DNA of 64,000 bases from Notolepis coatsorum (Eukaryota; Chordata; Actinopteri; Aulopiformes; Paralepididae): the NCBI GenBank assembly GCA_963971535.1, contig OZ020594.1, forward strand, positions 111,460,751 through 111,524,750. Reading direction: 5' to 3'. The translations under genes were made by a program, and so were the position numbers. Position 1 is the first letter of the stretch, and each line of letters starts with the position of its first letter. The notes under the pieces were generated by a model. That model worked only from the letters and a program-made list of their open reading frames with translations. It was not told the DNA's origin and searched no databases. This document shows, in pieces, positions 17,360 through 58,425 of the stretch.

Positions 17360-17361
17360 AT

Positions 17362-17378
17362 TGGTCCTTCGAGCCGGA
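17362..17378 (+). promoter_or_regulatory. Primer-binding site, tRNA-Tyr type
   Basis: TGGTCCTTCGAGCCGGA is complementary to the 3' end of tRNA-Tyr (CCGGCTCGAAGGACCA). It lies two bases after the LTR. Confidence 0.8.
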
Positions 17379-17403
17379 GCGTAACTAGTGTAATATTAAT
17401 ATA

Positions 17404-23621: not shown

Positions 23622-23715
23622 ACTGACCGACCCCTCACAACAGACATTGAGTAGTGGACAGTGCGGTTAATCTGTCTCTGCTTAGCTAATTAGGTGGGAC
23701 TAATTAGGAGGCGGC

Positions 23716-35754: not shown

Positions 35755-35821
35755 AGCGACAGAGAGAGAAGCAGGATACGGCATGTGTCAGTTTATGCAA
35801 AACACGCCCCTTTTAGTTTGA

Positions 35822-36075
35822 TTGATTGTAGCCACGGCCCTTTTTTGGAGCCTTCTGATTGGTCGAGATGTTTAAGGGGGCGGGACTTAGGTGTATGTCA
35901 TACCTTATAAGGGCATATATCAAAGTTTGATGGATTGTAGCCATGCCCCCTTTTGAGATGATTTATGACCCCTAGGGCTTCTCTGATTGGTCGAGGATGT
36001 AAGGAGGCGGGACATCCGGTTTTGAGGGAGGGACATCCGGTTTCAGAAGGGGAGGGCCATCTGGTTACGGAAGGG
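35822..36075 (+). promoter_or_regulatory. Terminal control region with repeated CCAAT/GC-box modules
   Basis: Two imperfect tandem units of about 90-110 bp. Each contains GATTG(A/G)ATTGTAGCCA followed by GATTGGTCGAG (inverted CCAAT, at 35857 and 35985) and a GGGCGGGAC or GGCGGGAC GC box (35879 and 36007). GGGACATCCGGTTT-type repeats follow. The same region is at the right end (about 52510-52615 and 54338-54480, split by the hAT). Similar arrangements serve as promoters or origins at the ends of linear DNA viruses; the function here is inferred. Confidence 0.4.
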
Positions 36076-36600
36076 GAGGAGTTTTCAGAATTTTTTCAAA
36101 ATAAAAGTTTTTTTTTTTTTCAAAAAACAAAAAAAAATCCTTCAAAATAAATTATTCAATTTTTTTTTTAGATTAAATTTTTATTTTTATTTTTCAGATT
36201 GTATGTATTCCAAGGTTTTCAGAATATGTATTTCTGTATTCCAAAAGTCTTAAGAATATATCCTCACAATATGTTTTATGTGTATCTTCACAATATGTAT
36301 TTCCAAGGTTTTTCAGAAAAATACAATATCTTCACAATATGTTTTATGTGTATCTTCAGAATATAGTTTCACAACAATCTTAAGAATAAATGTGTGTGGT
36401 TTAAATTACACAATTAAGAATATAGTTTTACAAGGTTGAATACGTTTTGTGTATTCCAGAGTCTTAAGAATTTGTGTATTCCAAATGCTAAATGTAAAAT
36501 ACAATGTGTGTTTTCTTCAGAAAGTGCATTTATTTCAAATGTGTGTGTGTTTTCTTAATGCCAAAAGCCAAATGTAAAATACATTTTGTGTATGAATCTA

Positions 36601-36888
36601 TTATTCTTCAGAAAGTGCATTTATTTCAAATGGTGAGTGTGTATTTCTTAAGAAAGTGCATTTTCTTCCAAGTGATGTATGTATCTTAAGAATACCCTCT
36701 CTCTGTCTGTTTGCTGTTGGTGTGTAGAAAGAATTCTCCCCTGCTCTGTGTGTCTCCACACTGTAGGTTGTCTCCTCTCTCAAATGTCTCTCAGTAGACT
36801 GAAATGAAAAGCTGCAGGTTCTCTGAAAATTCTGATAGTGACAGCCCCCCGTAGATGTCATAGGAGGCGGGAGAATGACTAGGGCCAA
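36601..36888 (-). CDS. Small ORF conserved between arms (95 codons), left copy
   Basis: The minus-strand ORF MALVILPPPMTSTGGCHYQ... is kept at the same length in the right arm (51725-52012) with only one residue difference seen by eye. No domain is recognised. Arm identity alone could explain the conservation, so coding status is doubtful. Confidence 0.25.
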   Translation of the reverse strand: MALVILPPPMTSTGGCHYQNFQRTCSFSFQSTERHLREETTYSVETHRAGENSFYTPTANRQREGILKIHTSLGRKCTFLRNTHSPFEINALSEE

Positions 36889-37144
36889 TGAGATGACTCA
36901 AAACCATCTGCCAAAAGCAGATTTATGACTCTGCGACTTCCCGTTTCTGTAGAAAAAACGGCCCCCAAGGTGTGGGTGTGTGTCTGTGTGTGTTTTCTTA
37001 ATGCCAAATGCCAAATGTAAAATACAATTTCTGTATTCCAAATTACAAATGTATGTGTCTAATGTGTTTAAGCAAAAGTCTAAATAAAAGAAAATACTTT
37101 TGAATCTAAAAAAAATAATAGTGATAACTTGTAACCACAATAAG

Positions 37145-37324
37145 TATGTATGTATGTATGTATGTATGTATGTATGTATGTATGTATGTATGTATGTATG
37201 TATGTATGTATGTATGTATGTATGTATGTATGTATGTATGTATGTATGTATGTATGTATGTATGTATGTATGTATGTATGTATGTATGTATGTATGTATG
37301 TATGTATGTATGTATGTATGTATG
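37145..37324 (+). repeat. (TATG)n microsatellite in the left arm
   Basis: About 45 units of TATG; the inverted counterpart (CATA)n is at 51299-51470. Apparent long ORFs of MYVC or HTYI repeats come from it. Confidence 0.98.
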
Positions 37325-38811
37325 TCTATATTTTAGTTTCTTGGATAAAGACATAATCTTTATACACTTGTGTTTAAGCAAAAAGAAAATTACAAATGTA
37401 TCCCTTTAATGCTCTTTGGGTGCCAAAGTGCACCATTTCATTAGCATGAATGGGTCTAGGGTTTGAATATTATCCTTAATACGGTCCTGTGAAGTGTTTT
37501 TATTTAAAATAGATTCTTTAAAAATGTTGCATTACAGTGTTTTGTATTATTCACATTAATTATTACACATATATTACACTATATATGATAGCTTAAAGAG
37601 TTGGGCTGAAAATATAAAGTACAGAAAATATCTGTGTGACAGTGAGGCTATGTCTCTGTTCGGGGGTGCGAACAGGCCCCTTCTTAGGTGCTAAAACACA
37701 GCATGGGGGGTGTGAAGATTAGGGGACATGTAAACTCAACACACATTTACAGTCATCATTCAAATGGTTTATATCTTTGTAACATGTACAAGTAATGTAT
37801 TGTACAACATTATACTCATAGCATATTTTTAGTTCACACAATGTTCACCTGTTTTCACACATATTTTTCCCCATAAACATGCATTTGTCCTAATAAACTA
37901 ACCTACACTTTGATGAATATTGTTACACCGCTGACAGAGATGTATTATAATTATAATTTGGATAAAAACGTCAGCTAATTGACTAAATGTAAATGTTGTA
38001 ATACCAACTATTTGACAGTTTGGGACACGGTGGTGATTCTTATTTTCTTATTTCGTAAGACTAAAACTAAAATTAAGAGGTTACATGCCATAGAAAGACT
38101 CTAGTCTTGTTTACATCAGAGTCCCCCATTCTCTAATTCTAATTCTTAATGTTACATCCAGACATTTAAGACATACCAGATTACAAATACAGCACTGTTT
38201 GTGATAACTTGTAAGGGTCTATCTGTCCAAGCTGTTTTAACTGTTTCAATAGGGTATTTCAACCATCTTTAATTAAGACTTATTTTGGATATAGATCACC
38301 TCAAGGCCTGAATGTCCATACACTGTAGCAATGGTAAGCCTGCATTTTAGGTCAACTTCCCCTTACCAACATGCACATCTAACCCCCATTTAATGTCACA
38401 GTACCCTGAAATAGCAGAGTGTGGGGAAAAGGCCTTTTTCAAAATAAAAAACTTTGAAACTGTACACCATTCACCACCCTAGCTGATTTTAAAGTTCCAA
38501 ATTAAGGACATTTAAAGAATGAGAGGGGCTAATGTCCCTGCATCATTGCATAACGTGGTGTTATATTTTATATTTATGGCCTGACCATCTCCCCCATACC
38601 AACATCCTGCAGTTCATTAACTTCCTTCCTCTTTTTTACCCCCATGTTTTTTGTATTATTCACATTAATTATTACACATATATTACACTATATATGATAG
38701 CTTAGAGTTGGGCCGAAAATATAAAGTGCTGTAAATATCTGTCTTTTTGAGGATCTGGGTGTGAACAGGGGGCCTGTTAGGTGTCAAAACACTGCAAGGG
38801 GGTGTGAAAGT
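37325..38811. other. Left arm, non-coding with internal direct repeats
   Basis: No gene seen. A roughly 180-bp block (about 37540-37725) recurs in direct orientation at about 38650-38815: shared TTATTCACATTAATTATTAC, the phrase ATATATGATAGCTTA, and a GTGCGAACAGG or GTGTGAACAGG end. The equivalents in the right arm are at about 49805-49985 and 50900-51085. Confidence 0.7.
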
Positions 38812-41780
38812 TTAGGGAACAAACAACCTCTGTATATTTGCTTGTAATACTCTGCATTTTACTCTAAACAAAACTAATAAAGTCTGTATTACAGCTAACT
38901 CTTTAAGTTTCAATAGTTTGGATTTAATACATAATTCGTTGGTATGTTCTCTTGAATCTACATTGTGAACTATTCTTACTGCTCTCTTCTGTAATATAAA
39001 TAAGGGCTTTATGTTGCTTTCATACGTGTTACCCCACACTTCCACACAGTAACTCAAATATGGTAGGAGTTCAAGTTCAAGTTCAAGTTTCAAGTTTCTT
39101 TAATAGTTGTCATACAGAAGTACAGAATACTTTTATACAAAATGCTTCTTACTGTTGCGCTCCAGAGACTGTGCAAGACAAGATAAGTATGAAATAAAAT
39201 AACATAGTAAAATTAGAAGTAAAAAAAATGAGGTCACAGTGTTCAGTTTAGACATATGTACAATGTTCGATGCAGAATAGACGTAGTTACCATACAATAT
39301 ACAATACTGTGCAGTGTACTAATATACAATACTATATAGTGCAAGGCAGAAATGGAGAAATGGGACGAGGTGCAATTTAGGTACAATTCACAGTAGGTGT
39401 ACGAGTTGTAGTGCAAATCCTTTATCAATAAATATAAAGTGTAAGTGTGTTTGTGTGATCTAAAGTGTGGAGAGTGGGTGCTGCAGTGTGTTGTTTGTTT
39501 GAGTGAGTGTGTGTGTGTGGGTGTGTGTGCTGTGTGCATTTGATGGTTGTTGCATAGTGATTATTGTTCGTTTAGCAGCCTGATGGCCTGGGGATAGAAG
39601 CTTCTTCTGAGTCTTTCTGTGCTCGCCTTAAGACTCCGGTATCGCTTGCCTGACCGCAGCAGTTCAAAGAGGCAGTTGTTCGGGTGGCTCGAGTCCTTAA
39701 TAATTCTCTTAGCCTTCCCCTTGCACCGCTTGTTGTAAATGTTCTGGAGGGTGGGAAGCCCCCCTCCAATTGTGCGTTCGGCTGAACGTGTCACTCTTTG
39801 TAGTCTGCTACGGTCTTGTGCAGTGCTATTCCCAAACCAGGAGGTGATGTTGCCGGTCAGGATGCTCTCTATTGTACATGAGTAGAAGTTCCTAAGGATC
39901 TTCTGACTGACTTGGAACTTCCTTAGGCGCCTGAGGAAGTAGAGGCGTTGTCGTGCCTTCTTCACAACACTGTCAATGTGTGTGGTACATGTCAAGCCCT
40001 TGGATATGTGGGCTCCGAGGTACTTGAAACTGTTCACTCTCTCAACCGGTGCCCCGTCGATGCTGAGGGGGCTGTAGTCCTTGACCCCCGACATCCTGAA
40101 GTCCACAATCATCTCTTTTGTTTTGCTGACGTTCAGGGAGAGGCAGTTCTCCTGACACCACTGTGACAGGTTCTCTACCTCTTCCAGGTAGGCCCTTTCG
40201 TCGTTGGCAGAGATCAGGCCCACCACTACTGTGTCATCAGCAAATTTGATGATGGTGTTGTTGTTCCGCTGTGCTATGCAGTCATGTGTGTACAGGGAGT
40301 AGAGGAGGGGGCTCAGAACACAGCCCTGGGGGGCCCCTATGTTGAGCGTGATGGATGAGGAGGTGCAGTTGCCGGCTCTTACCACCTGGGGTCTGCCCGT
40401 CAGGAAGTCCAAGACCCACTGGCAGAGGTCATAGTTCAAGCCCAGGTCCCTGAGCTTGGCTATGAGTTTGGAGGGGACTATGGTATTGAATGCTGAGCTG
40501 TAGTCGATGACAGCATTCTCACATAGTTCCCCTGCCTCTTGTCCAGGTGTGATGCTGCTGTGTGCAGCACATGGGCTATGGCGTCCTCCGTGGACCTGTT
40601 GGGGCGATATGCAAATTGCAGAGGGTCCAGGTTGATGGGGAGGGAGGAACAGATGTAGCCCTTCACTAGCTTCTCAAAGCACTTCATGGCTATGGAGGTG
40701 AGGGCTACAGGGCGGTAGTCGTTGAGGCAAGCGGGCATAGATATTTTGGGTACAGGGATGATGGTGGACTTCTTCAGACAGGTGGGGATGACAGCCTGTT
40801 CCAAGGACAGGTTGAAGATGTCAGTGAATACCGGGGCCAGTTGGTCGGCACAGACTTTTAGGACGCGGCCGGGGATGCCGTCCGGTCCTGCTGCCTTCCT
40901 GATATTCACTTGAGTGAACAATATAATATTCGCATAGAATTATAATCAAGCACATTCTTTGCCTTGTTCAAAACAAAACACTCTCGGCTACCTTATTTTT
41001 TATGTACATTATATGAGGTTTCCATGTCATTTTCTCATCCAACATAACACCCAGCATTTTTTAACTCAGATACTCTTTCAATATTAACTTTGTCAATACA
41101 TAATGCAACATTGTCCTTCTTTCGATTAGTAAATATCATACATTTCGTTTTTTCCAAATTTAGGGATAGCTTATTGTTATTAAACCATATCTTAAGTTTA
41201 CACATTTCATTTACAATGTAATCTGCTAATTTTTTAAGGTATTTTCCTGAACTGAAGAAATTTCTATCGACAGCAAATAAAACAAATTGCAATATGTTTG
41301 ACACTACACATATATCATTAATATATAAAATAAAAAGTATGGGCCCCAGGACCGAACCTCGAGGGTCACCACATTCAATATTCATACATTCAGATGTGTA
41401 ACCACTGCCAGAGAGTTGTACATATTGTTGTCTATTTTCAAGATAGCTACTTAACCAGTTCAACGCCACCCCTCTCACACCGTATGTTTGTAATTTAGAA
41501 ATTAAAATGTGATGATCAATCGTATCAAATGCTTTTTTTTAAGTCAATAAACACCCCTATTGTGTAATTCCTTTCAACTACGGTTGTGGTTATTTCTTCA
41601 TATATATTCATTAAGGCTAAGGCTGTTGATCGATATGCCCTGAATCCATACTGACTATCACTCAGTAGGTTATTCTTTTCAATAAAACTATCTAAGAATC
41701 TTGAATCAAGAATCTTGGAAAATTGTGAAAACAAAGACAATGGTCTGTAGTTGATAAAGATGTTTTTGTCCCCTGATTTA
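38812..41780 (-). pseudogene. CR1/Jockey-group LINE fragment in the left arm, split by Rex1
   Basis: Minus-strand pieces encode the reverse transcriptase: QYGFRAYRSTALALMNIYEE, then [40 protein letters not shown] and [16 protein letters not shown]. The C-terminal part (LPYLSYCVEVWGNTYESN, then LQKRAVRIVHNV) lies beyond the Rex1 insertion. The catalytic box reads FAVD instead of FADD, so this copy is inactive. The same fragment is in the right arm (48690-49803), so it was present before the arms were duplicated. Confidence 0.8.
39068..40913 (-). mobile_element. Rex1-type LINE, 5' truncated, in the left arm only
   Basis: The minus-strand reverse transcriptase shows [20 protein letters not shown], then [17 protein letters not shown], a frame break at the YSSAFNT region near 40520, GAPQGCVLSPLLYSLYTHDC, the catalytic FADDTVVVG near 40230 and LSLNVSKTKEMIVDFRMS. 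It ends SFYPQAIRLLNEQ at 39561. The 3' end (39068-39100) has repeated TTCAAG. SSAFNT and the C-terminus are Rex1 features. The right arm at about 49545-49560 is uninterrupted and shows the empty site. Confidence 0.9.
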
Positions 41781-43800
41781 AATAAAGGAATAAGGTAGTG
41801 AATTAATAGAATTTTCCCACAGGGATGAGGTTTATCTTATCTAAGTGTGCTACTGTTTAATAGTGTATAGGGACATAGTGTGTAATAGTGTAATAGTGTA
41901 TAGGGACATAGTGTGTAATACTGCAATAGTTTAATACATTATTTTGTTTCCTCAAACAGACATGTTCATGTAACTTGCATCAATCCGATCATACTTATTA
42001 TAATCTATACCCTTAATTAAATCACCTTTCAGCCAACTGAGTTGAAGATTTGTAGCTTGGTCCAGAGTTTTTTTTTTTTTACCTACCAGATCATCTGTAG
42101 CAGGCTAAATGTGAATAAAACACATTGAAAGCCAGGTCAAGAGGCTAAAAGTGAGGTTAGGTTTCTTTTTCAGAAACAAATCGTGCTTTTTTTCTTTGAA
42201 TGTCAAGGATAAACATAAATTATAGACATCTAAAATCATGAAACAGGTCGATTTTTAGTAGATTTAATCAATAGTCAGAAGGATAATGCTATTTTAGTCA
42301 AGGGTTGAGATATATCACCCCCATGACACATCCCTATTTTGTAAGACAAGCAGTTTGGTGTTGTAATTTCAGTGATTAGGCTCGTTTGCCTGTATACATT
42401 TTTTATCAATCTGCTTTTTGTGTATTTTTTTTAGGTGTTTGGTTATGTTTATCTGTCATTTTGACCAGGTCTAGCTAAAAGAGGGGATTTATGATGACTA
42501 AGGTTTACCAATTGTCATGCATGAATTTCAACTCTAACGTGTTACATAAGTAAAACAGACTATTTGCAAACAACATTGTTCTAAACAGTGTATATACTAT
42601 AGACAGTTTGTATTTATATTTTAGCTAAATGTAAAAAACATGAGAACATAATCCTAGTGAATTCTGAATTTGTTGTTTATTGGTTGAATGTCAAGGATAA
42701 ACATAAATTATAAACATCTAAAACCATGAAACTGACCGATACACTTAAAACAGACATGTCAACATAGTTTTTTTTACCTGTTTGCATAATGATGAGGTAA
42801 AAAAACAAAGTGCTTCAATACAAATGTATTTTTTAGAAGTTTAGTAATATCAAGCCCCAAATGTATTTTCTTTAAACCTGATCTAAGCTACATTATACAA
42901 CTCATTGCTGAATTACTTTGCAGTGTCTAGTTTTTTAGCCACACTAAATATTTATGCTCTCAATATTATGGATCTGCATTAAATCCTACACACAGCATGA
43001 AATATTCAATCAACACAAAGATGATAATTCTAAGGCAAATACATTTTAACTCACTCATCATAGTTAGTGTATAGTATGGCTAACATCTATGAAAGTAACA
43101 TAAAGCCGTTATTAGAGTTGTTGATACAATATTATAATTCATAATTTTGCAGAAAAAAGCTAAATGCACTGTATTACCGGCGAGGTTGTGTGCTCCTTGT
43201 CCCGATGATTGAAGGAAATTCATTTTAAGAACTATTTAGCATGAAATATCTTAATACAAAGATGCATTTTATACATTATAACCATGAAAATAATACAATG
43301 TTTGGTTTTACCGTGATTATAATGTTCACAGATAGGAATGTATCCTGGATACATTCAGTAACATCATTAACCCTGAACAGACTTGTGAAGTTAGAGATAG
43401 GAATGTATCATTCACATTCAATTATCCAAATATACTCTGTTTGAGTCAAATTTACTCTGTGAAATGTACTCTGCGAAATGTAAGGTGTAGCAAAAACAAT
43501 TCATATTGTTTCAGTGTTGGCCTGGTTGATAGCTACATGGTCGACATGTCTTATTTTTATTCTTATTTCATTGTATAGTGAATCCAGGGGTATAGTGGAT
43601 CGATTATATTTTGTTTTTATAATATTTTATAATATCAAAACATGTCTTATGTTCTATAAAATGTTCTTATATATCTACATGTCAGAATGATGTAAAAAGA
43701 GTTCTACTAATATATTTCACTTAAAAAACTTGTACAGAAAGATACATTTCCGACCCCCGGAGCCCTGTCAGAGTGTATACAGGTTCAGTACAGTATACCA
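41781..43800. other. Left arm, AT-rich region without recognised gene
   Basis: Very AT-rich. It includes short tandem repeats of GTGTAATAGTGTATAGGGACATA type near 41860-41940 and long TTTTTTTAC runs. The opposite arm has most of this at about 47345-48690, with length differences. No coding or RNA gene could be supported. Confidence 0.5.
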
Positions 43801-43808
43801 CATGCAAA

Positions 43809-43880
43809 TCCCATATGGTCTAGCGGTAAGGATGCCCTGCTTTCATCAGGGAGGCGCGGGTTCGACTCCTGCTATGGGAA
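43809..43880 (+). tRNA. tRNA-Glu (UUC), left arm
   Basis: A 72-nt cloverleaf: acceptor TCCCATA/TATGGGA (7 of 7 pairs), D arm GGTCTAGCGG, anticodon stem CCCTG/CAGGG around the loop CTTTCAT (anticodon TTC, Glu) and T arm GCGGG-TTCGACT-CCTGC with one G-U pair. The A box (TGGTCTAGCGG) and B box (GGTTCGACTCC) are intact. Compared with the usual animal tRNA-Glu, the anticodon stem bases differ on both sides but still pair. It is carried by the palindromic element in both arms. It could be functional or a decoy. Confidence 0.85.
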
Positions 43881-44096
43881 TAACACCTTTGTTCTATACA
43901 TAGCAAATGTGTTGGTATGCTTTATTGTAACTGTTTGACTGTTTTTAGTGCAACACTACTGTCACCAACATCTAAGAAGGATCTGAGATGCATTTAAGTC
44001 CTATCGATAGGTTTTTCCATACCATTGCAAGGATATGTATGACTGTGCTACATTCATTTATTTTTAAATTTGGTGGACTTTATGGTATTTTATGGT

Positions 44097-44312
44097 TTAT
44101 TTATGATTGTGATACTTCTTATTGAATTGTTTAAAGAATATGTGTTTAACCCAAGGGGTGATTAATGTATTGTTGGACCTTACAAATATGATTCGATCCC
44201 AACAAGTGGTGACATTTTGAAGTCTTAAAGGGATCACATTCACATAGCTGAATATAGTTGCACAACTGGATAATATTTGTATTATTACTAGGATGAACTT
44301 AAAATCATTCAA
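44097..44312 (-). CDS. Small ORF (71 codons), left arm copy
   Basis: MNDFKFILVIIQILSSCATIF... on the minus strand, with an N-terminal hydrophobic stretch that could be a signal or membrane segment (residues 4-25). The right-arm copy (46844-47059) is open at the same length with two residue differences by eye. It follows the 153-codon ORF on the same strand. No family recognised. Confidence 0.3.
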   Translation of the reverse strand: MNDFKFILVIIQILSSCATIFSYVNVIPLRLQNVTTCWDRIIFVRSNNTLITPWVKHIFFKQFNKKYHNHK

Positions 44313-44374
44313 AACAATTATTACATAACAATTATTACAATGAAACGCAGTTGTGTATATTATATATTTTTTTA

Positions 44375-44836
44375 TTAAAGAATATTACAAATCATACTGC
44401 AACCTTTTTTATCAATAATATAAGCGTGCATAACATCAATAATGTGATTAATATCTAAAGTTTCTAAACACTTATGATTTTTCAGTTTAAAAGCCGTAAC
44501 ATCCACTATTACGGTGTATAAACATAACAGGTGTGCTCTGTTAAAATGACCATTCATATGATCTAAAATAGTAACTAAACCGTTTTCAGATAGAAGACTT
44601 TCATCTTCTGAGAGTGTCTCTATCATATATTGCCAATTATTTAACAAGCCTTTCTCTCTCACCAGCTTCAACATATTTTCAAAAAGCCTTAAGCGCAGGC
44701 TATTGACATTCCCGGTTACAGTGTACAAGTGGGCATCGTTGACTTTATTAGCTATAGCATGCTTTAAAAGCAATGCGATATCATAGTTTATAGAGGTCGT
44801 AATACAGCTGGTAGTCCTACTGAAGAAATTCCCCAT
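44375..44836 (-). CDS. Orphan ORF (153 codons) of the palindromic element
   Basis: Reads MGNFFSRTTSCITTS... to ...KKGCSMICNIL. It appears all-helical, Leu-rich and acidic in the middle (ENMLKLVREKGLLNNWQYMI, then ETLSEDESLLSENG). MG at the N-terminus could be a myristoylation signal and the C-terminal Cys residues are notable. The layout (small helical protein with an NNW block) loosely recalls viral Bcl-2/E1B-19K-like proteins, but I see no true BH1 NWGR motif, so this is only a guess. The 3' two thirds recurs with identical residues in the right arm (46482-46781). It diverges from the 194-codon ORF across about 200 bp that may hold a bidirectional promoter. Confidence 0.55.
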   Translation of the reverse strand: MGNFFSRTTSCITTSINYDIALLLKHAIANKVNDAHLYTVTGNVNSLRLRLFENMLKLVREKGLLNNWQYMIETLSEDESLLSENGLVTILDHMNGHFNRAHLLCLYTVIVDVTAFKLKNHKCLETLDINHIIDVMHAYIIDKKGCSMICNIL

Positions 44837-45045
44837 TTCCTATGCTACGATCCTGGTACTTTAAACAACAGCTGATACTTCAAAGTTTCTGTCAAAGACT
44901 GCGACTGTCAAAAAGATTGTGTGGATGTATTTCTGTATGGGGGTGGGGGCGTAGCTGCGGACGGGTCTGTATGACGCTATAGATGTGGAGGATAGAAACC
45001 TATATATTTAGAGAGTTACCTCTTAGAGAGACCCTAAAAAATAAA

Positions 45046-45630
45046 ATGGCGAGCAGTCTAGCTACAACGGTTAGTCATGTTACGGACAGAGCTACCAGGA
45101 TTAAAACCATGTTACTTGCACCTTGCAGATATGGTAGAGAGATCTATAACGAACTATGCCCGGTCGTCGGTGGTATCCTAGGATTTGAATACGATGCTAG
45201 AGCTGAGAGAATCCTGTTCTACAAGATGACCGTGGAGGATTTCCAGGGCGTTGCAAGCAGGCCTGAGATGTATCTAAAGGAGACGGAATTTTGGGAAATG
45301 AAAAAGGCTTCTTTTAAGTCTATGGATGGACTGATGGGTAGAACGCTTAAGGATGGACAGCTAATCACGCTGTTAATAGGCCATAGCCGGCTACGGTACG
45401 GGTATGTGCATTACGAGGGTAGGATATCTATAAAAAGTACTCTGACACTTGATGTAGAGCCTGATCTAGCCATCTCCAGGCGGTATAATTCAACTCTTGA
45501 GCATTTCATCTTCTCACTTCCGGTAACCAAATGGCTGCAATGTCTCCAGACATGCGGGGAGGTCCTTCAAGAGGTGTTCGAGGCGAGAAGGCTCTTACCG
45601 AGCGAATCAGGGGACCTGGAGTACGATTGA
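45046..45630 (+). CDS. Orphan ORF (194 codons) in the palindrome centre
   Basis: Only one copy exists, in the unique centre. I prefer the start at ATG 45046 (context AAAATGG, MASSLATTVSHVTDRATR) over the upstream ATG at 44983, which would give 215 codons. The product seems globular and mixed, with CRYGREIYNELCPVVGGIL, the segment MYLKETEFWEMKKASFKS and VTKWLQCLQTCGEVLQEVFE. No transmembrane segment or known fold is recognised. It is followed by the 239-codon ORF on the same strand. Confidence 0.55.
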   Translation: MASSLATTVSHVTDRATRIKTMLLAPCRYGREIYNELCPVVGGILGFEYDARAERILFYKMTVEDFQGVASRPEMYLKETEFWEMKKASFKSMDGLMGRTLKDGQLITLLIGHSRLRYGYVHYEGRISIKSTLTLDVEPDLAISRRYNSTLEHFIFSLPVTKWLQCLQTCGEVLQEVFEARRLLPSESGDLEYD

Positions 45631-45720
45631 CCCATCGAGGGGGCGCCGGAGGGGGCGTGTCAACCCTAAATCCTCCTTTAAAAAGACTTACAGTGCATTT
45701 TGTACTTTTAGATAGCAATC

Positions 45721-46440
45721 ATGGCTTTGTATGTGGCACATGAGGCTGATCCTGTTAACTCTGCATTGGATACATTAGATAGCCTGTCTCCACTAAACAC
45801 GCCTGACGATGTGGAGACACTACCCGCTGGCGGTTATAGATTCATGGACCCTCCTTCAACGCGATCAACCTTTGCTTGGTATGAGGCTGATCCTTCTAAG
45901 CATGCCTCGGATACACTAGATAGCCTGTCTCCACTATACGCTCCAGAAGAGGAAGTTGAGACATTACCCGTACCCCTGTATGGTTCAACTAAAACTCCTT
46001 CATTGCTAAGCCTCCTAGACAGCTTTAGGACTAGTTACAGCCCTCTTTCAACAATTTGGGAGACTTCATCGCCGGATTCACCACCGTCAAACCCCGTCAG
46101 GTGTACGAATCCTAATAGCCCCTGGTACACGGGTCCTTGGGAGACTTCGTCGCCGGATTCATCACCGCCAAACCCCGTCAGGCATATGGATGTCCCTCCT
46201 AATAGCCCCTGGCACACCCCTCCTACATCAGAATCTGATGTATTCCACCCTGACCCGAAAGAAATACCTCTCGTTGATGTAACCAACATAGCATCAGGAC
46301 TGCCATCCCCAACCGGGGGTACGGTTAAGAGACTGTGTCCTACTAGAAGAAAAACCTTCCACTTCCCAATCAAAGTAGCTACTCTTAAAGCCTTAGTGAC
46401 AGCCGCGGAGCTGTCAGGACAATTGTACATCGAAGGGTAA
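45721..46440 (+). CDS. Orphan Pro/Ser-rich ORF (239 codons) in the palindrome centre
   Basis: Starts with ATG in good context (ATCATGG) 90 bp after the preceding ORF. The product is acidic, rich in Pro, Ser and Thr and probably disordered. It contains internal repeats: SDTLDSLSPL and ALDTLDSLSPL, and two WETSSPDS(P/S)P...NPVR units. A basic segment (TVKRLCPTRRKTFHFP) lies near the C-terminus. Such a composition fits a regulatory protein, but no family is recognised. The right arm begins at its end. Confidence 0.5.
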   Translation: MALYVAHEADPVNSALDTLDSLSPLNTPDDVETLPAGGYRFMDPPSTRSTFAWYEADPSKHASDTLDSLSPLYAPEEEVETLPVPLYGSTKTPSLLSLLDSFRTSYSPLSTIWETSSPDSPPSNPVRCTNPNSPWYTGPWETSSPDSSPPNPVRHMDVPPNSPWHTPPTSESDVFHPDPKEIPLVDVTNIASGLPSPTGGTVKRLCPTRRKTFHFPIKVATLKALVTAAELSGQLYIEG

Positions 46441-46843
46441 CCGGGAATGTCAATAGCCTGCGCTTAAGGCTTTTTGAAAATATGTTGAAGCTGGTGAGAG
46501 AGAAAGGCTTGTTAAATAATTGGCAATATATGATAGAGACACTCTCAGAGGATGAAAGTCTTCTATCTGAAAATGGTTTAGTTACTATTTTAGATCATAT
46601 GAATGGTCATTTTAACAGAGCACACCTGTTATGTTTATACACCGTAATAGTGGATGTTACGGCTTTTAAACTGAAAAATCATAAGTGTTTAGAAACTTTA
46701 GATATTAATCACATTATTGATGTTATGCACGCTTATATTATTGATAAAAAAGGTTGCAGTATGATTTGTAATATTCTTTAATAAAAAAAAATATAATATA
46801 CACAACTGCGTTTCATTGTAATAATTGTTATGTAATAATTGCT

Positions 46844-47059
46844 TTGAATGATTTTAAGTTCATCCTAGTAATAATACAAATATTATCCAGTTGTGCAACT
46901 ATATTCAGCTATGTGAATGTGATCCATTTAAGACTTCGAAATGTCACCACTTGTTGGGATCGAATCATATTTGTAAGGTCCAACAATACATTAATCACCC
47001 CTTGGGTTAAACACATATTCTTTAAACAATTCAATAAGAAGTATCACAATCATAAATAA
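46844..47059 (+). CDS. Small ORF (71 codons), right arm copy
   Basis: Counterpart of 44097-44312 with His for Pro and Arg for Gln in the middle. Otherwise identical; same remarks apply. Confidence 0.3.
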   Translation: MNDFKFILVIIQILSSCATIFSYVNVIHLRLRNVTTCWDRIIFVRSNNTLITPWVKHIFFKQFNKKYHNHK

Positions 47060-47270
47060 ACCATAAAATACCATAAAGTCCACCAAATTTAAAAATAAAT
47101 GAATGTAGCACAGTCATACATATCCTTGCAATGGTATGGAAAAACCTATCGATAGGACTTAAATGCATCTCAGATCCTTCTTAGATGTTGGTGACAGTAG
47201 TGTTGCACTAAAAACAGTCAAACAGTTACAATAAAGCATACCACACGCTATGTATAGAAAAAAAGTGTTA

Positions 47271-47342
47271 TTCCCATAGCAGGAGTCGAACCCGCGCCTC
47301 CCTGATGAAAGCAGGGCATCCTTACCGCTAGACCATATGGGA
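47271..47342 (-). tRNA. tRNA-Glu (UUC), right arm
   Basis: Same 72-nt cloverleaf as 43809-43880 with no difference seen in the tRNA body. Its 3' flank on the minus strand has a run of seven T (about 47259-47265), a stronger Pol III terminator than in the left copy. Confidence 0.85.
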
Positions 47343-47344
47343 TT

Positions 47345-48689
47345 TGCACGTGGTATACTGTACTGAACCTGTAAACACTCTGACAGGGCTCCGGGGGTCG
47401 GAAATGTATCTTTCTGTACGTTTTTTAAGTGAAATATATTAGTAGAACTCTTTTTACATCATTCTGACATGTAGATATATAAGAACATTTTATAGAACAT
47501 AAGACATGTTTTGATATTATAAAATATTATAAAAACAAAATATAATCGATCCACTATACCCCTGGATTCACTATACAATGAAATAAGAATAAAAAATACA
47601 TTTGGGGCTTGATATTACTAAACTTCTAAAAAATACATTTGTATTGAAGCACTTTGTTTTTTTACCTCATCATTATGCAAACAGGTAAAAAAAACTATGT
47701 TGACATGTCTGTTTTAAGTGTATCGGTCAGTTTCATGGTTTTAGATATTTATAATTTATGTTTATCCTTGACATTCAACCAATAAACAACAAATTCAGAA
47801 TTCACTAGGATTATGTTCTCATGTTTTTTACATTTAGCTAAAATATAAATACAAACTGTCTATAGTAGATACACTGTTTAGAACAATGTTGTTTGCAAAT
47901 AGTCTGTTTTACTTATGTAACACGTTAGAGTTGAAATTCATGCATGACAATTGGTAAACCTTAGTCATAATAAATCCCCTCTTTTAGCTAGACCTGGTCA
48001 AAATGACAGATAAACATAACCAAACACCTAAAAAAAAATACACAAAAAGCAGATTGATAAAAAATGTATACAGGCAAACGAGCCTAATCACTGAAATTAC
48101 AACATCAAACTGCTTGTCTTACAAAATAGGGATGTGTCATGGGGGTGATATATCTCAACCCTTGACTAAAATAGCATTATCCTTCTGACTATTGATTAAA
48201 TCTACTAAAAATCGACCTGTTTCATGATTTTAGATGTCTATAATTTATGTTTATCCTTGACATTCAAAGAAAAAAAGCACGATTTGTTTCTGAAAAAGAA
48301 ACCTAACCTCACTTTTAGCCTCTTGACCTGGCTTTCAATGTGTTTTATTCACATTTAGCCTGCTACAGATTATCTGGTAGGTAAAAAAAAAAAACTCTGG
48401 ACCAAGCTACAAATCTTCAACTCAGTTGGCTGAAAGGTGACTGAAATTAAGGGTATAGATTATAATAAGTATGATCGGATTGATGCAAGTTACATGAACA
48501 TGTCTGTTTGAGGAAACAAAATAATGTATTAAACTATTGCAGTATTACACACTATGTCCCTATACACTATTACACTATTACACACTATGTCCCTATACAC
48601 TATTAAACAGTAGCACACTTAGATAAGATAAACCTCATCTCTGTGGGAAAATTCTATTAATTCACTACATTATTCCTCTATTTAAATCA
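47345..48689. other. Right arm, AT-rich region without recognised gene
   Basis: Inverted counterpart of 41781-43800. No gene or RNA supported. Confidence 0.5.
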
Positions 48690-49803
48690 GGGGACAAAAA
48701 CATCTTTATCAACTACAGACCATTGTCTTTGTTTTCACAATTTTCCAAGATTCTTGATTCAAGATTCTTAGATAGTTTTATTGAAAAGAATAACCTACTG
48801 AGTGATAGTCAGTATGGATTCAGGGCATATCGATCAACAGCCTTAGCCTTAATGAATATATATGAAGAAATAACCACAACCGTAGATGAAAGGAATTACA
48901 CAATAGGGGTGTTTATTGACTTAAAAAAAAGCATTTGATACGATTGATCATCACATTTTAATTTCTAAATTACAAACATACGGTGTGAGAGGGGTGGCGT
49001 TGAACTGGTTAAGTAGCTATCTTGAAAATAGACAACAATATGTACAACTCTCTGGTTACACATCTGAATGTATGAATATTGAATGTGGTGACCCTCGAGG
49101 TTCGGTCCTGGGGCCCATACTTTTTATTTTATATATTAATGATATATGTGTAGTGTCAAACATATTGCAATTTGTTTTATTTGCTGTCGATACAAATTTC
49201 TTCAGTTCAGGAAAATACCTTAAAAAATTAGCAGATTACATTGTAAATGAAATGTGTAAACTTAAGATATGGTTTAATAACAATAAGCTATCCCTAAATT
49301 TGGAAAAAACGAAATGTATGATATTTACTAATCGAAAGAAGGACAATGTTGCATTATGTATTGACAAAGTTAATATTGAAAGAGTATCTGAGTTAAAAAA
49401 TGCTGGGTGTTATGTTGGATGAGAAAATGACATGGAAACCTCATATAATGTACATAAAAAATAAGGTAGCCGAGAGTGTTTTGTTTTGAACAAGGCAAAG
49501 AATGTGCTTGATTATAATTCTATGCGAATATTATATTGTTCACTCATCCTACCATATTTGAGTTACTGTGTGGAAGTGTGGGGTAACACGTATGAAAGCA
49601 ACATAAAGCCCTTATTTATATTACAGAAGAGAGCAGTAAGAATAGTTCACAATGTAGATTCAAGAGAACATACCAACGAATTATGTATTAAATCCAAACT
49701 ATTGAAACTTAAAGAGTTAGCTGTAATACAGACTTTATTAGTTTTGTTTAGAGTAAAATGCAGAGTATTACAAGCAAATATACAGAGGTTGTTTGTTCCC
49801 TAA
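48690..49803 (+). pseudogene. CR1/Jockey-group LINE fragment, right arm (uninterrupted by Rex1)
   Basis: Plus-strand pieces match the left-arm fragment: DSQYGFRAYRSTALALMN, then [24 protein letters not shown] at the catalytic box, [16 protein letters not shown], and a C-terminal piece LPYLSYCVEVWGNTYESN ending at 49803. Frame changes occur near 48925 (an A-run) and 49420-49490, so it is inactive. Confidence 0.8.
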
Positions 49804-51295
49804 ACTTTCACACCCCCTTGCAGCGTTTTGACACCTAACAGGCGCCCTGTTCACACCCAGATCCTCAAAAAGACAGATATTTACAGCACTTTATATTTTC
49901 GGCCCAACTCTAAGCTATATATAGTGTAATATATGTGTAATAATTAATGTGAATAATACAAAAAACATTGGGGTAAAAAAGAGGAAGGAAGTTAATGAAC
50001 TGCAGGATGTTGGTATGGGGGAGATGGTCAGGCCATAAATATAAAATATATCACCACGTTATGCAATGATGCAGGGACATTAGCCCCTCTCATTCTTTAA
50101 ATGTCCTTAATTTGGAACTTTAAAATCAGCTAGGGCGGTGAATGGTGTACAGTTTCAAAGTTTTTTATTTTGAAAAAGGCCTTTTCCCCACACTCTGTGC
50201 TATTTCAGGGTACTGTGACATTAAATGGGGGTTAGATGTGCATGTTGGTAAGGGGAAGTTGACCTAAAATGCAGGCTTACCATTGCTACAGTGTATGGAC
50301 ATTCAGGCCTTGAGGTGATCTATATCCAAAATAAGTCTTAATTAAAGATGGTTGAAATACCCTATTGAAACAGTTAAAACAGCTTGGACAGATAGACCCT
50401 TACAAGTTATCACAAACAGTGCTGTATTTGTAATCTGGTATGTCTTAAATGTCTGGATGTAACATTAAGAATTAGAATTAGAGAATGGGGGACTCTGATG
50501 TAAACAAGACTAGAGTCTTTCTATGGCATGTAACCTCTTAATTTTAGTTTTAGTCTTACGAAATAAGAAAATAAGAATCACCACCGTGTCCCAAACTGTC
50601 AAATAGTTGGTATTACAACATTTACATTTAGTCAATTAGCTGACGTTTTTATCCAAATTATAATTATAATACATCTCTGTCAGCGGTGTAACAATATTCA
50701 TCAAAGTGTAGGTTAGTTTATTAGGACAAATGCATGTTTATGGGGAAATCTTTTAAAATATGTGTGAAAACAGGTGAACATTGTGTGAACTAAAAATATG
50801 CTATGAGTATAATGTTGTACAATACATTACTTGTACATGTTACAAAGATATAAACCATTTGAATGATGACTGTAAATGTGTGTTGAGTTTACATGTCCCC
50901 TAATCTTCACGCCCCCCATGCTGTGTTTTAGCACCTAAGAAGGGGCCTGTTCGCACCCCCGAACAGAGACATAGCCTCACTGTCACACAGATCTTTTCTG
51001 TACTTTATATTTTCAGCCCAACTCTTTAAGCTATCATATATCGTGTAATATATGTGTAATAATGAATGTGAATAATACAAAACACTGTAATGCAAAAAAT
51101 TTTAAGAATCTATTTTAAATAAAAACACTTCACAGGACCGTATTAAGGATAATATTCAAACCCTAGACCCATGCATGCTAATGAAATGGTGCACTTTGGC
51201 ACCCAAAGAGCATTAAAGGGATACATTTGTAATTTTCTTTTTGCTTAAACACAAGTGTATAAAGATTATGTCTTTATCCAAGAAACTAAAATATA
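49804..51295. other. Right arm, non-coding with internal direct repeats
   Basis: Inverted counterpart of 37325-38811; no gene seen. Confidence 0.6.
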
Positions 51296-51298
51296 GAC

Positions 51299-51470
51299 AT
51301 ACATACATACATACATACATACATACATACATACATACATACATACATACATACATACATACATACATACATACATACATACATACATACATACATACAT
51401 ACATACATACATACATACATACATACATACATACATACATACATACATACATACATACATACATACATAC
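51299..51470 (+). repeat. (CATA)n microsatellite in the right arm
   Basis: About 43 units; counterpart of the (TATG)n at 37145-37324 with slightly different length. Confidence 0.98.
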
Positions 51471-51724
51471 TTATTGTGGTTACAAGTTATCACTATTTTT
51501 TTTTTAGATTCAAAAGTATTTTCTTTTATTTAGACTTTTGCTTAAACACATTATACACATACATTTGTAATTTGGAATGCAGAAATTGTATTTTACATTT
51601 GGCATTTGGCATTAAGAAAACACACACAGACACACACCCACACCTTGGGGGCCGTTTTTTCTACAGAAACGGGAAGTCGCAGAGTCATAAATCTGCTTTT
51701 GGCAGATGGTTTTGAGTCATCTCA

Positions 51725-52012
51725 TTGGCCCTAGTCATTCTCCCGCCTCCTATGACATCTACGGGGGGCTGTCACTATCAGAATTTTCAGAGATCCTGCA
51801 GCTTTTCATTTCAGTCTACTGAGAGACATTTGAGAGAGGAGACAACCTACAGTGTGGAGACACACAGAGCAGGGGAGAATTCTTTCTACACACCAACAGC
51901 AAACAGACAGAGAGAGGGTATTCTTAAGATACATACATCACTTGGAAGAAAATGCACTTTCTTAAGAAATACACACTCACCATTTGAAATAAATGCACTT
52001 TCTGAAGAATAA
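51725..52012 (+). CDS. Small ORF conserved between arms (95 codons), right copy
   Basis: Counterpart of 36601-36888 with Ser for Thr at residue 24. Unknown; may not be coding. Confidence 0.25.
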   Translation: MALVILPPPMTSTGGCHYQNFQRSCSFSFQSTERHLREETTYSVETHRAGENSFYTPTANRQREGILKIHTSLGRKCTFLRNTHSPFEINALSEE

Positions 52013-52747
52013 TAGATTCATACACAAAATGTATTTTACATTTGGCTTTTGGCATTAAGAAAACACACACACATTTGAAATAAATGCACTTTCTGAAGAA
52101 AACACACATTGTATTTTACATTTAGCATTTGGAATACACAAATTCTTAAGACTCTGGAATACACAAAACGTATTCAACCTTGTAAAACTATATTCTTAAT
52201 TGTGTAACTTAAACCACACACATTTATTCTTAAGATTGTTGTGAAACTATATTTTGAAGATACACATAAAACATATTGTGAAGATATTGTATTTTTCTGA
52301 AAAACCTTGGAAATACATATTGTGAAGATACACATAAAACATATTGTGAGGATATATTCTTAAGACTTTTGGAATACAGAAATACATATTCTGAAAACCT
52401 TGGAATACATACAATCTGAAAATAAAAAAAAACTTTTGAATCTAAAAAAAAAAATTTGAATCTTTTATTTTGAAGGACTTTAAAACTTTTATTTTTAAAA
52501 AATTCTGAAAACTCCTCCCCTTCCGTAACCAGGTGGCCCTCCCCTTCCGAAACCGGATGTCCCTCCCTCAAAACCGGATGTCCCGCCTCCTTACATCCTC
52601 GACCAAGCAGAGAAGCCCTAGGGCAGGGGTGGCCAACCAGTCAGAGACTAAGAGCCACAAAAAAATTACTGTGGTACCACAAAGAGCCACACCATATACC
52701 AGCGTTTCTCAACCTTTTTTTTCAGTCACGGCACCCTTCATGTGTTT

Positions 52748-53460
52748 ATAGGTCTCACCCTCTGGCCTCTGAAGTTGCTAATGTCTTTTTTATTTGGGCC
52801 TCACAGGGTTAAAAGTACCCTGTGAGACCCACGGTTTCAAAATTACAAAATCACTTTTAGCCATTTAAAAAAATAATGTTTATTTAAAAAATGTTAAAGG
52901 GGAACTATTTTACTATTTCTTTCACTATTTGGGCACTTTTACACAATTCCTGTGAGTCTATGGAACACCTAGGTATTTTTCAAAAAAAATGCATTGTTTT
53001 GTATTTCTAATCAAGTACTAAAAACCGCATTTTTCTACCTTAAGATCTTAAGCCGTTTTGAGGCTGGGCTCCAACCACTGTGTGGCCTGGTGCCAACTGC
53101 CACATCAACTGCCACATTATTATGCAGCTGAGAAATCTCTGACATCACAGATATGCACATTTTCAGATGACTCAGTTCAGTGAGGGTGAATATTGTGAGA
53201 GGAGAATTGGAAGAATTCGCCAATATGAGAATTAGAGACATATATCCTATTAATATAAGTCCACATAGCTAAGAAACAATGGTAAACACTGAAAAAAGCC
53301 ATTTATAAGATAGTTCCCCTTTAAGCACATGTATAGTCAATTGGTCCTGTTGTTCAGCCTCACAATGCTATTTGATAGTAAATGTGTTTATATGTCCCAC
53401 CCTCTGGCCTCTGAAGTTGCTAATTTCTTTTTAATTTGGGCCTCACAGGGTTAACCTCTT
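52748..53460 (+). repeat. 65-bp direct repeat around the MITE
   Basis: TCACCCTCTGGCCTCTGAAG... at about 52752-52815 recurs at about 53396-53458, both ending GGGCCTCACAGGGTTAA. It may be a partial duplication of an enclosing unclassified repeat. Confidence 0.7.
52898..53320. mobile_element. Kolobok-like MITE, TTAA duplication
   Basis: 423 bp with inverted ends AGGGGAACTAT and ATAGTTCCCCT between TTAA (52894-52897) and TTAA (53321-53324). Its left 130 bp matches, inverted, the right end of the element at 381-3716 (shared ACACAATTCCTG, TCTATGGAACAC, CATTGTTTTGTAT and AATCAAGTACT). Confidence 0.75.
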
Positions 53461-53654
53461 AAGCCCGAGATATACAGTAAAAGTGTATATTTTCAGCATT
53501 ATGTTTGTTTACCAATTATTTGAACTGTTATTAGTGAAATATAAGATTATAGAAATCTCAGGGCATTGAGTCGGAAACCGGCGCATATTGACAGGAGGAA
53601 GTGGCACAGCCAAAAGTGAGTGTAGTCTTTTGAAGGAAGAGACTCAGGGCTTTC

Positions 53655-54100
53655 AAATTTCGAAAAAACTACCCTACCCAGCTCACACCAGCCCCTGTCA
53701 ATCATCTGACTTCTGGATTTACTTTTTAATTTCTCTTATTTTTTGGGATTATCTCCCACAAACCTGAACGTTATTGCCATAAAACAGAACGCAGTTAGTT
53801 TCTCTACCTTTCTGTGAACGTCTTGCAAAAAACGGTGTTGCAATATGATGAAAAATGGTGGAGAAATTTACATTATAAAAAAGATGGCAGAATTCAGTAC
53901 TGTATCTACAAAACCTTCTGTTTAATCATCTTCCCTTTATTCATTTGCTTAGATTTTTCAGGTCTGGTCAATTTTAGCATGGTGTTATTTACAGTCAAAG
54001 ATATATTTTTTTTTAAATTGAATTGATATTCTCCTTTGGTTCATTACAATTTACTCAAGCCTAGTAACAGACACACTATTTCTGACACTGATCCATATAT
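53655..54100 (-). repeat. Unclassified dispersed repeat X, copy 2
   Basis: Inverted match to 1-376, including ACTAGGCTTGAGTAAATTGT and GACAGGGGCTGGTGTGAGCT in reverse. It lies inside the hAT element. Confidence 0.65.
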
Positions 54101-54539
54101 GTCCCTAGATTCAGATACCAAGAACATGCAAATGGACCATTTAAAAAAAAATTGTAAATGTTTATTCTACGTCCTTATGGAATGAGTGACATAAAAAAAA
54201 TAAAAATAAAAAAAAAAAAAAAAAAAAAAAAAAATTATTTTTTTTTATTTTTTTTTATGGATGGAAGAGCCGCACATTGACGGGCAAAGAGCCGCATGCG
54301 GCTCGCGAGCCGCGGGTTGGCCACCCCTGCCCTAGGGGGTCATAAATCATCTAAAAAGGGGGCGTGGCTACAATCCATCAAACTTTGATATATGCCCTTA
54401 TAAGGTATGACATACACCTAAGTCCCGCCCCCTTAAACCTCTCGACCAATCAGAAGGCGTGGCTACAATCAATCAAACTAAAAGGGGCGTGTTTTGCATA
54501 AACTGACACATGCCGTATCCTGCTTCTCTCTCTAGCGAC

Positions 54540-57087: not shown

Positions 57088-58425
57088 TGTTACAAAGGGT
57101 CAGATTAAACCGAATATATATATTTATTGTTTGATATCCCTTGTATAATAATTGTATATCGTTTGATATCCCTTGTATATTATTTGTATATATACACGGA
57201 ATATCCCTTTACCTGTGTACAAACCAGAGTAATATTCGCTCTCCTATTGGACAGCGACCCCAGGCGCCAACGACCAAGCCCCCAACGGCAAGTTCAAAGG
57301 CAACTCCGGGCATGTCGCTACATGCCCAGAGTCTGCGCAGTAATACGAGACAGAACTGAGGTTGGCACTAGATATTCACCTTACGTATAAATACGGCGCA
57401 GGTGTAAAACAGCAGTGGTTCAAGTTCAGTGTCCAAGCCTTCACCACGCATACAACGTGCAGTGAAGTGAGCAACCTTGCAGCTAAATAGAGCATTGAGA
57501 ACCGCGTGCGAATAGAATGCTAAAGTGTCAGGGTTTAACGCAGTAACGTTGAGTTTGACTTAATCTAATGTGAAGTAATAGTCGATCATTTATAGTGTAT
57601 CGTGCGGCTACAGTTCTTCAGTGACCAGCATTACCACCGGTTCGTCGTGTATTTAGCTAGTGCACTTATCCAGGCTGTGCGGCCTAAATCCGTGCCCACA
57701 CCCGAGGAGTCCTAGGCGAGAACCGTTGGATATGTACACAGGAGAACCTACACCGGCGATTGCAGAACCATTTCTGGTTGGATTATATTGCTTTGGGACC
57801 GTGACCACTGGAGAAGAGTACCGTCGATTCCACTGTCGTTTGGGATTTACCCCCGTGAGGATCATCACTCGGGCCCGCCTCTAGGAAGAGGCTGGCTAGC
57901 TGTCGTCCATGCTGTCGAGCATACTGGATTACAAATGTTGCTTTGTCTGCTGATCAAGGGAGTACATGCACCGGCTCCTGTATCTGGAGCCTCGTTATTC
58001 CTCATTGACCCAGACTTTGTACCCGAACATTCCTCTACCCCTACCGGCCTTACACCCCGGAGGGAACCCCCCAGTGTCTCCAGCTGGTACCGGTGTGGCC
58101 TATATAATTGCTATACCACAGGTGGCGTCAGCTTAGACCCATCATAGTATTCATACTATTCTCATTGACTTATGCTCTTGACTGACTTTACGTGTGTTCT
58201 TCGCCATACAAGCGCAAGCCTAATTCTCAATCTGTAACCTAACGTTGCTTAATAATAATAAATAACCCTCCAATAGAACTTTATGTGTCAATGCCGTATT
58301 CTTGTGTGGGTGTTCACCATATATATTCATGTACTGTATGGCCAGTAATTAAAGTACATAACTAGTAGTGGTTTAATATATCACAATCTTTAATACAGTC
58401 AGGGTATTGTAACCCCTCAGTTACA
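57088..58425 (+). mobile_element. Solo BEL/Pao LTR
   Basis: 1,338 bp, TGTTACA...GTTACA, flanked by GCTTG (57083-57087 and 58426-58430). It is clearly related to the LTRs at 16025 and 23716 but considerably diverged, so it belongs to an older or different subfamily. It sits in the DIRS gag region. A solo LTR forms by recombination between the two LTRs of a former full element. Confidence 0.95.

Follow-up and report, generated by a model that had tools for sequence, protein, structure and literature searches.

The window analysed here, a 64,000-nucleotide stretch of contig OZ020594.1 of the fish Notolepis coatsorum, carries a giant palindromic element (35761-54533) that is one member of a family in this genome, and this family probably descends from a fish Maverick/Polinton as a non-autonomous element with genes of its own, formed by snap-back of one end of its parent and spread in trans. 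The direct basis for this reading is the ends of the element, its target-site duplications (TSDs), the palindromic form, the family, the polymerase of a Maverick with palindrome-type termini in the same genome (below, the helper), the identity of the two arms copy by copy, and the kinship of one of the palindrome's genes, g2, to a gene of the helper.

The element begins with AGAGAGAGAAGC and ends with GCTTCTCTCTCT, both termini read inward as AGAGAGAGAAGCAGGATACGGCATG, of the (AG)n type, and it is bounded by exact copies of AGCGAC (35755-35760 and 54534-54539), all as an earlier note made from the sequence alone had claimed. The left arm (35761-44719, plus strand) spans 8,959 bp and the inverted right arm (46437-54533, minus strand) 8,097 bp, on either side of a single-copy centre that forms the loop of the palindrome (44720-46436); the terminal 29-mers lie at 35761-35789 (plus) and 54505-54533 (minus), and the joint between the end of gene g3 and the inverted arm at 46423-46456 (plus). 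The arms of about 9 kb described in the earlier note are correct as spans, but the sequence they share comes to 6,433 bp in all, to which the left arm adds a private insertion of a long interspersed nuclear element (LINE) and a 684-bp segment gone from the right, the rest of the spans being private insertions and loss. Aligned to the inverted partner, the outermost 218 bp (35761-35978) are 91.8% identical, with an indel, and the blocks 35970-39068, 40911-42869 and 43554-44719 are 97.5%, 98.9% and 98.5% identical. On the minus strand, both flanks look like parts of a single coding region, presumably of DIRS type by its peptides; Pfam gave no match in the two flanking frames tested.

Searches of the species' own assembly (3.42 Gb, 4,787 contigs), with control patterns alongside, confirmed that the palindrome is real and placed it in a family, where the earlier note had seen a single element. 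A degenerate form of the terminal 29-mer matched exactly at 137 places (69 + 68; reversed control 0 + 0), and the joint between centre and arm was found at 198 places (98 + 100, allowing up to 3 mismatches; none for the control pattern). The 300-bp end query gave 1,218 first-look candidates, with several inverted pairs about 14.5 kb apart among the 40 scored, and the centre query gave 44 matches in the 40 scored of 420 candidates. The further copies with 6-bp duplications that the earlier note had proposed to look for exist: all seven palindrome-family copies checked, the window's included, have an exact TSD, each different from the others, the six besides AGCGAC being GATGCC, ATTGCT, CATATC, GCTGAC, CTCATT and GCAACG (the last read from the two ends of C7, a copy of 31.6 kb). 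With one helper added, an exact 6-bp TSD was present in 8/8 elements examined. Palindromes are a classic product of misassembly, and an assembly artefact was a doubt raised in the earlier note itself; however, the 198 joints, the different TSD at each locus checked and the private insertions in single arms all contradict it, and since 137 exact termini stand against none in the control and the TSD is exact in every element examined, chance and misassembly are effectively excluded.

Four copies were fetched end to end, and their arms are 99.985% identical over 6,456 bp (C24, a single mismatch), 99.74% over 6,431 bp, 99.42% over 6,376 bp and 99.80% over 7,503 bp, the last copy also having an outer 733-bp block at 97.95% and extra internal repeats. 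A fifth copy, C23, has arm blocks that are 99.87-100% identical and an insertion of about 5 kb in one arm. One copy has as its target what is presumably a copia-like frame, judged by its peptide, and another sits in a LINE that is 97.5-99% identical to the LINE piece of the window's left arm. From a list of 100 terminus places, 82 were paired by hand into 41 plus/minus couples, leaving 18 unpaired, one of them at the end of the list. Nine of these couples measure 14.27-14.85 kb; the seven that were sampled all proved to be palindromes whose arms agree at 100% in the 363-481 bp of main block compared, and an eighth (C21:80537795), read whole, is a palindrome copy too. Sampling covered nine couples, with sequence taken a few kb inside both ends. 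Couples of other lengths are more varied: one of 8.5 kb has helper sequence on one side (256 bp at 100%) and no match opposite, in one of 8.6 kb the two sides correspond to different portions of the palindrome arm, and three of 15.8-16.0 kb match the arm on both sides, with direct left-right identity in one and the other two sampled at different arm positions. The undisturbed palindrome is about 14.3-14.6 kb long, with a loop of about 1.5-1.7 kb.

There are also centres that lie head to head (C21:94596501/94597735, overlapping by 9 bp, and C35:92489074/92490407, overlapping by 10 bp) and five couples in which joints face each other at distances of 0.9-3.2 kb (for example C6:61094442-61097640), picked out by eye from positions only, which are probably secondary, more symmetric palindromes. 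Together, these arrangements, known from their positions alone, suggest that palindrome formation recurs. At C9:11573938, 11575275 and 11576612, three identical termini lie on one strand 1,337 bp apart, as tandem copies of an element end. The terminal 25-mer had no match in IMG/VR.

The helper is a couple of termini at C4:83596559-83612149 (15,591 bp) that are of the palindrome type and enclose different contents, of which 11.1 of 15.6 kb were read, in pieces. It has an open frame of 1,404 codons with a DNA_pol_B_2 domain (PF03175, E 1.6e-38), a P-loop ATPase frame whose Pfam matches (Adeno_IVa2 and Pox_A32 among them) are all below the cut-offs, a small basic frame, a 239-codon frame and a homologue of g2. 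Its terminal inverted repeats (TIRs) of about 1.0 kb are 95.9% identical, and its TSD, GTGTGT, is of low complexity. The polymerase (PolB) has 36 matches in the assembly (33 scored of 629 candidates), of which 11 cover residues 1-1402 without a stop, ten at 96-100% and one at 80%. By hand comparison, a PolB match lies inside 5 of the 41 couples, and these are every couple of 15.59-15.71 kb (5/5). The longer relatives with Polinton core genes that the earlier note had envisaged thus exist in the same genome, in so far as they have a Polinton-type polymerase between the same ends; what they share with the palindrome is the ends and not a whole arm.

Near a related PolB locus on C43 (PolB 88%) lies a 435-residue frame with 572 protein matches at E 0.01 or better, among the 8,000 candidates scored, at up to 63% identity; the 120 matches listed include many fish F54H12.2-like proteins, such as one from Thunnus thynnus at 62%. 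By that name we take the frame to be a putative Maverick major capsid protein; Pfam and the PDB gave no identity for it. The end region of a distant PolB locus, L062, has open reading frames resembling a capsid module, and those of two others, L060 and L061, contain no palindrome-element sequence. IMG/VR returned one weak PolB match.

Helper and palindrome are linked at their tips. The terminal 29-mer of the helper at C13:64852716 is letter for letter that of the palindrome at C23:63948776, and the same holds for the helper at C4:49303462 and the palindrome at C6:52209630. The helper read in pieces (C4:83596559-83612149) shares end stretches of 48-50 bp at 100% with two palindromes, and 113 bp at 97% with one of them. 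Inside, the first 102 residues of g2 are 43% identical to a helper frame (E 5e-26) and the 80 residues that follow are 35% identical to it (E 3e-13), and this homologue lies at one helper end, oriented inward as in the palindrome. Common termini, TSD length and genome argue for common machinery. An ordinary foldback or miniature inverted-repeat (MITE-like) transposon with long inverted repeats and no Maverick kinship would formally match the long arms and small centre, but the identity of some terminal 29-mers with those of PolB-bearing elements, the 6-bp TSDs and the g2 homology make this very improbable. At E 1e-3, tblastn with nine helper or relative frames, including PolB, the ATPase, an integrase-like piece and the capsid frame, gave no match either in the window element or in the ten pieces compared from five further copies.

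The arms of each copy are equalised copy by copy. For the inner arms we compared 12 of the 20 centre loci, the other 8 having been dropped for truncation or insertions, and in 23 of 24 arms the nearest relative was the copy's own partner arm. Arm divergence within copies was 0-1.7% (median 0.4%), and between copies, taking the closest of four comparisons, it had a median of 3.6% (range 0.1-5.7%). The same 29-mer variant, out of 22 variants, is found at both ends in 38 of the 41 couples, helpers included, whereas 10,000 shuffles of the terminal variants gave 2.7 such couples on average and never more than 10. Replication through a hairpin is the simplest account of this equality, with gene conversion as its rival. 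Under that rival, a Maverick derivative with ordinary ends became palindromic once, by break repair in the genome, then spread, and its arms have been kept alike by conversion locus by locus. Inverted repeats do convert well, and the window copy, despite its private insertions, has long arm blocks that are 97.5-98.9% alike. Some copies, however, are near-identical over whole arms (C24, and the sampled couples, 7/7 at 100% in their main blocks), and the single-arm insertions and loss of the window copy were never converted away; we regard such homogenisation as unlikely. Near-identical arms alongside unconverted private changes fit identity at birth followed by drift, with conversion a possible contributor.

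The centre carries three genes. g1 (44378-44836, minus strand; 153 codons, N-terminus MGNFFSR) spans the boundary between left arm and centre, and a 5'-truncated copy of it lies in the right arm (46437-46778, plus); g2 (45046-45630, plus; 194 codons) is the gene whose helper homologue lies close to one end; and g3 (45721-46440, plus; 239 codons) takes its stop codon from the inverted arm. The g3 match stops at the arm boundary in 20/20 centre loci, the window's own included. Since g1 is intact across the left boundary and the right arm has only its 3' part, and since the stop of g3 is supplied by the arm, we take the left boundary to be parental and the right one to be the joint that arose later. 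A match of 7 bases, TTGTACA, occurs near this joint on both sides, and is suggestive only.

All three genes are mostly open across the family, g1 being uninterrupted in 15, g2 in 18 and g3 in 17 of the 20 centre loci, of which the window's is one. g2 exists as two types, A and B (B in L023, L026 and L028), that are 51% identical, with a ratio of nonsynonymous to synonymous substitution (dN/dS) of 0.53, and that sit within otherwise similar palindromes: in an alignment of four copies, two per type, most 150-bp windows of the arms are 94-99% alike. The pattern resembles an exchange of cassettes. Against the helper, type B scores 41.3% and type A 37.5% in the C-terminal part, and 41.2% and 40.2% in the N-terminal part. 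The corresponding pooled polymorphism ratio (pN/pS) is 0.31 for g1 and 0.47 for g2, values that look purifying, and 1.64 for g3, from gap-free copies only (19, 18 and 18 sequences). Pfam, NCBIfam and PHROGs had no usable match for any of the three. For g1 there is one distant homologue, protein P0121, with none confirmed in IMG/VR and no PDB match; for g2 no protein-database match was obtained at E 1, none was confirmed in IMG/VR, and the PDB held nothing usable, its one hit being a designed protein at E 0.038. Structure models had a mean predicted local distance difference test score (pLDDT) of 41.6 for g1 and 38.2 for g2.

These genes could in principle make the palindrome a new autonomous element, with g1, g2 or g3 as its replicase or recombinase and a Maverick likeness confined to the ends. 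That they are mostly open, that g1 has a distant homologue and that the two g2 types show a dN/dS of 0.53 would agree with this, but the proteins are small (153-239 residues) and have no usable family match, and g2 is also a gene of a full Maverick that has its own polymerase. We consider an autonomous element improbable.

The derivation from a Maverick end can be laid out as a series of steps. The parent would have been one end of a Maverick-type genome with g1, g2 and g3, a captured dead LINE piece and a tRNA-Glu-like gene. A template switch by the polymerase, or snap-back, would have copied that end back on itself, and the product would be linear, with identical Maverick ends on both sides, arms of about 6.4 kb and a loop of about 1.5-1.7 kb. 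Both ends would be Maverick-type origins with (AG)n repeats, and we therefore propose that the helper's protein-primed polymerase could replicate the palindrome and its integrase could insert it with 6-bp duplications. Once displaced as a single strand, such a genome could pair with itself along a 6.4-kb stem, and synthesis could then proceed round the loop; the two arms of the new copy would in this way be identical. The earlier note had called the element a snap-back derivative of one end; that the g2 homologue sits at one end of the helper favours a one-end origin without proving it, and the snap-back step, like replication and integration in trans and possible packaging in helper capsids, is inferred.

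A number of observations weigh against this derivation. Beyond the shared tips, palindrome and helper ends are 75-78% identical over up to about 600 bp; the 11.1 kb of helper pieces contain nothing homologous to g1 or g3; and no direct parent with g1-g2-g3 and without the palindrome was found. The pattern for the g3 end has 224 matches against 198 joints, an excess that is unreadable because only exact matches were listed; of the 32 apparently joint-less places, at least two (L044, L046) lie between inverted arms. The helper's integrase-like piece was named by eye only, and Pfam found none. One arm of the 24 (in L050) is closest to another copy, L054, and chromosomal gene conversion could likewise hold arms alike. 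The tests of selection, which counted single-base codon variants and set aside multi-base ones (2 in g1, 7 in g2 and 6 in g3), are not significant for g1 (p 0.16) or g2 (p 0.10), in copies of one genome, and g3 leans the opposite way (p 0.096; 57 non-synonymous and 15 synonymous variants in 18 copies), an excess that may be read as relaxed, diversifying or overlapping constraint. Purifying selection on g1-g3 is accordingly not claimed as proven.

A broader reading is possible, and we hold it only tentatively: the family may be a heritable satellite virus, with accessory genes, exchange of g2, copying as a giant hairpin by the protein-primed polymerase of the helper, packaging in helper capsids and germ-line insertion by the helper's integrase. 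Packaging is suggested because the palindrome (14.3-14.6 kb) is close in length to the helper (15.6-15.7 kb), a closeness that is compatible with a packaging limit and is no demonstration of one. If this is true, the palindrome would parasitise a virus-like transposon in a vertebrate.

The arms of the window copy also record what happened before and after the family spread. A broken LINE reverse transcriptase remnant (41038-41836, minus strand, in the left arm; mirrored at 48627-49419 in the right) recurs, likewise broken, at the equivalent arm position in 4/4 further copies scanned, and a tRNA-Glu(TTC)-like gene (43809-43880, plus, in the left arm; 47271-47342, minus, in the right) is also present in 4/4 arms scanned, one from each of four other copies. 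Host-like DNA was thus probably captured before the family spread, the LINE remnant by the ancestor of the palindromes. An active LINE in the arms was considered and rejected, given stops in 4/4 other copies scanned and split frames in the window copy. Later events are private to one arm: a 1,842-bp LINE insertion (39069-40910, minus) in the left arm only, rejected as a family component by its absence from the right arm and from C24, and a 1,705-bp insertion (52624-54328) in the right arm only, with the repeat GCCCTAGGG at its flanks, presumably hAT-like. The right arm also lacks 684 bp present in the left (42870-43553), and because C24 has the segment, this is a loss on the right.

Elsewhere in the window, 16025-25050 has direct terminal repeats of 1,335 bp (16025-17359 and 23716-25050) that are 99.6% identical and run TGTTACA...CAGTTACA, with open frames of 1,381 and 701 codons between them, and is probably a recent long terminal repeat (LTR) retrotransposon; a third repeat at 57088-58425 is about 75% related to these. 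A tandem array with a period of 84 bp (11361-13365) encodes a long frame resembling C2H2 zinc fingers, 668 codons of it open, and upstream of it lies a coding-like 135-bp tandem repeat (9751-10738) whose copies are 96-98% identical.

Our search of the literature on palindromic, non-autonomous, satellite or defective forms of Polintons, Mavericks or adintoviruses, over titles and the beginnings of abstracts and mostly in open-access papers, gave no such family, and none is described in the available portions of PMC11071296, PMC9683012 and PMC6431247. Vertebrate Mavericks, as presented in the portions of PMC8097293 used here, have a protein-primed polymerase, an integrase, 6-bp duplications and end repeats expected to serve jumping back; intact ones have an (AG)3//(CT)3 or related end motif, TIRs of 46-1,447 bp and a length of 12.7-24.6 kb, and virus particles have not been observed so far. 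Measured by that description, the palindrome resembles an intact Maverick in its (AG)3//(CT)3 ends, its perfect 6-bp TSD, its length (14.27-14.85 kb in the sampled copies), its sharing of ends with the PolB-bearing elements beside it and the presence of g2 in an end region. It differs in that its inverted repeats of about 6.4 kb are more than 4 times the longest given there for intact vertebrate Mavericks (1,447 bp; PMC8097293), in that, of the core genes of an intact element (pPolB, integrase, ATPase and major capsid protein), the palindromes tested have no match to the helper or relative frames taken to represent them, the integrase only as a piece named by eye, and in being a palindromic genome with a 1.5-1.7-kb loop. 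Its termini equal those of an element with replication genes, as in a non-autonomous derivative. For the replication and spread of Mavericks in vertebrates, the family would document, in the genome itself, Maverick-type replication through a hairpin intermediate and mobilisation in trans, and its copies are a natural set in which to study how snap-backs form and how gene cassettes are exchanged in a protein-primed element.

Among known systems, the panhandle or snap-back defective genomes of adenoviruses are similar in having a protein-primed linear genome, inverted terminal repeats and strand folding, and are unlike the palindrome in not being an integrated genomic family. Foldback transposons of the Tetris type have, to our knowledge, no ends in common with a protein-primed viral element. 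What the palindrome shares with them is long inverted repeats, as reported for Tetris in the sections of PMC4079207 drawn on here. Teratorn is likewise a virus-transposon hybrid of fish with long inverted repeats, but in the account in PMC6431247, as far as it was available, it combines piggyBac with a herpesvirus, measures 41-182 kb and has other ends. Snapback genomes also occur in defective particles of adeno-associated virus (AAV; PMC8235507, in part), and there, as is proposed for the palindrome, one end is copied back on itself and propagation depends on helper functions; asymmetric forms have a loop, as the palindrome does. Whereas those AAV genomes are subgenomic products described from parvovirus stocks (PMC8235507, same sections), the palindrome is a heritable, multicopy family with 6-bp TSDs and the ends of a Maverick.

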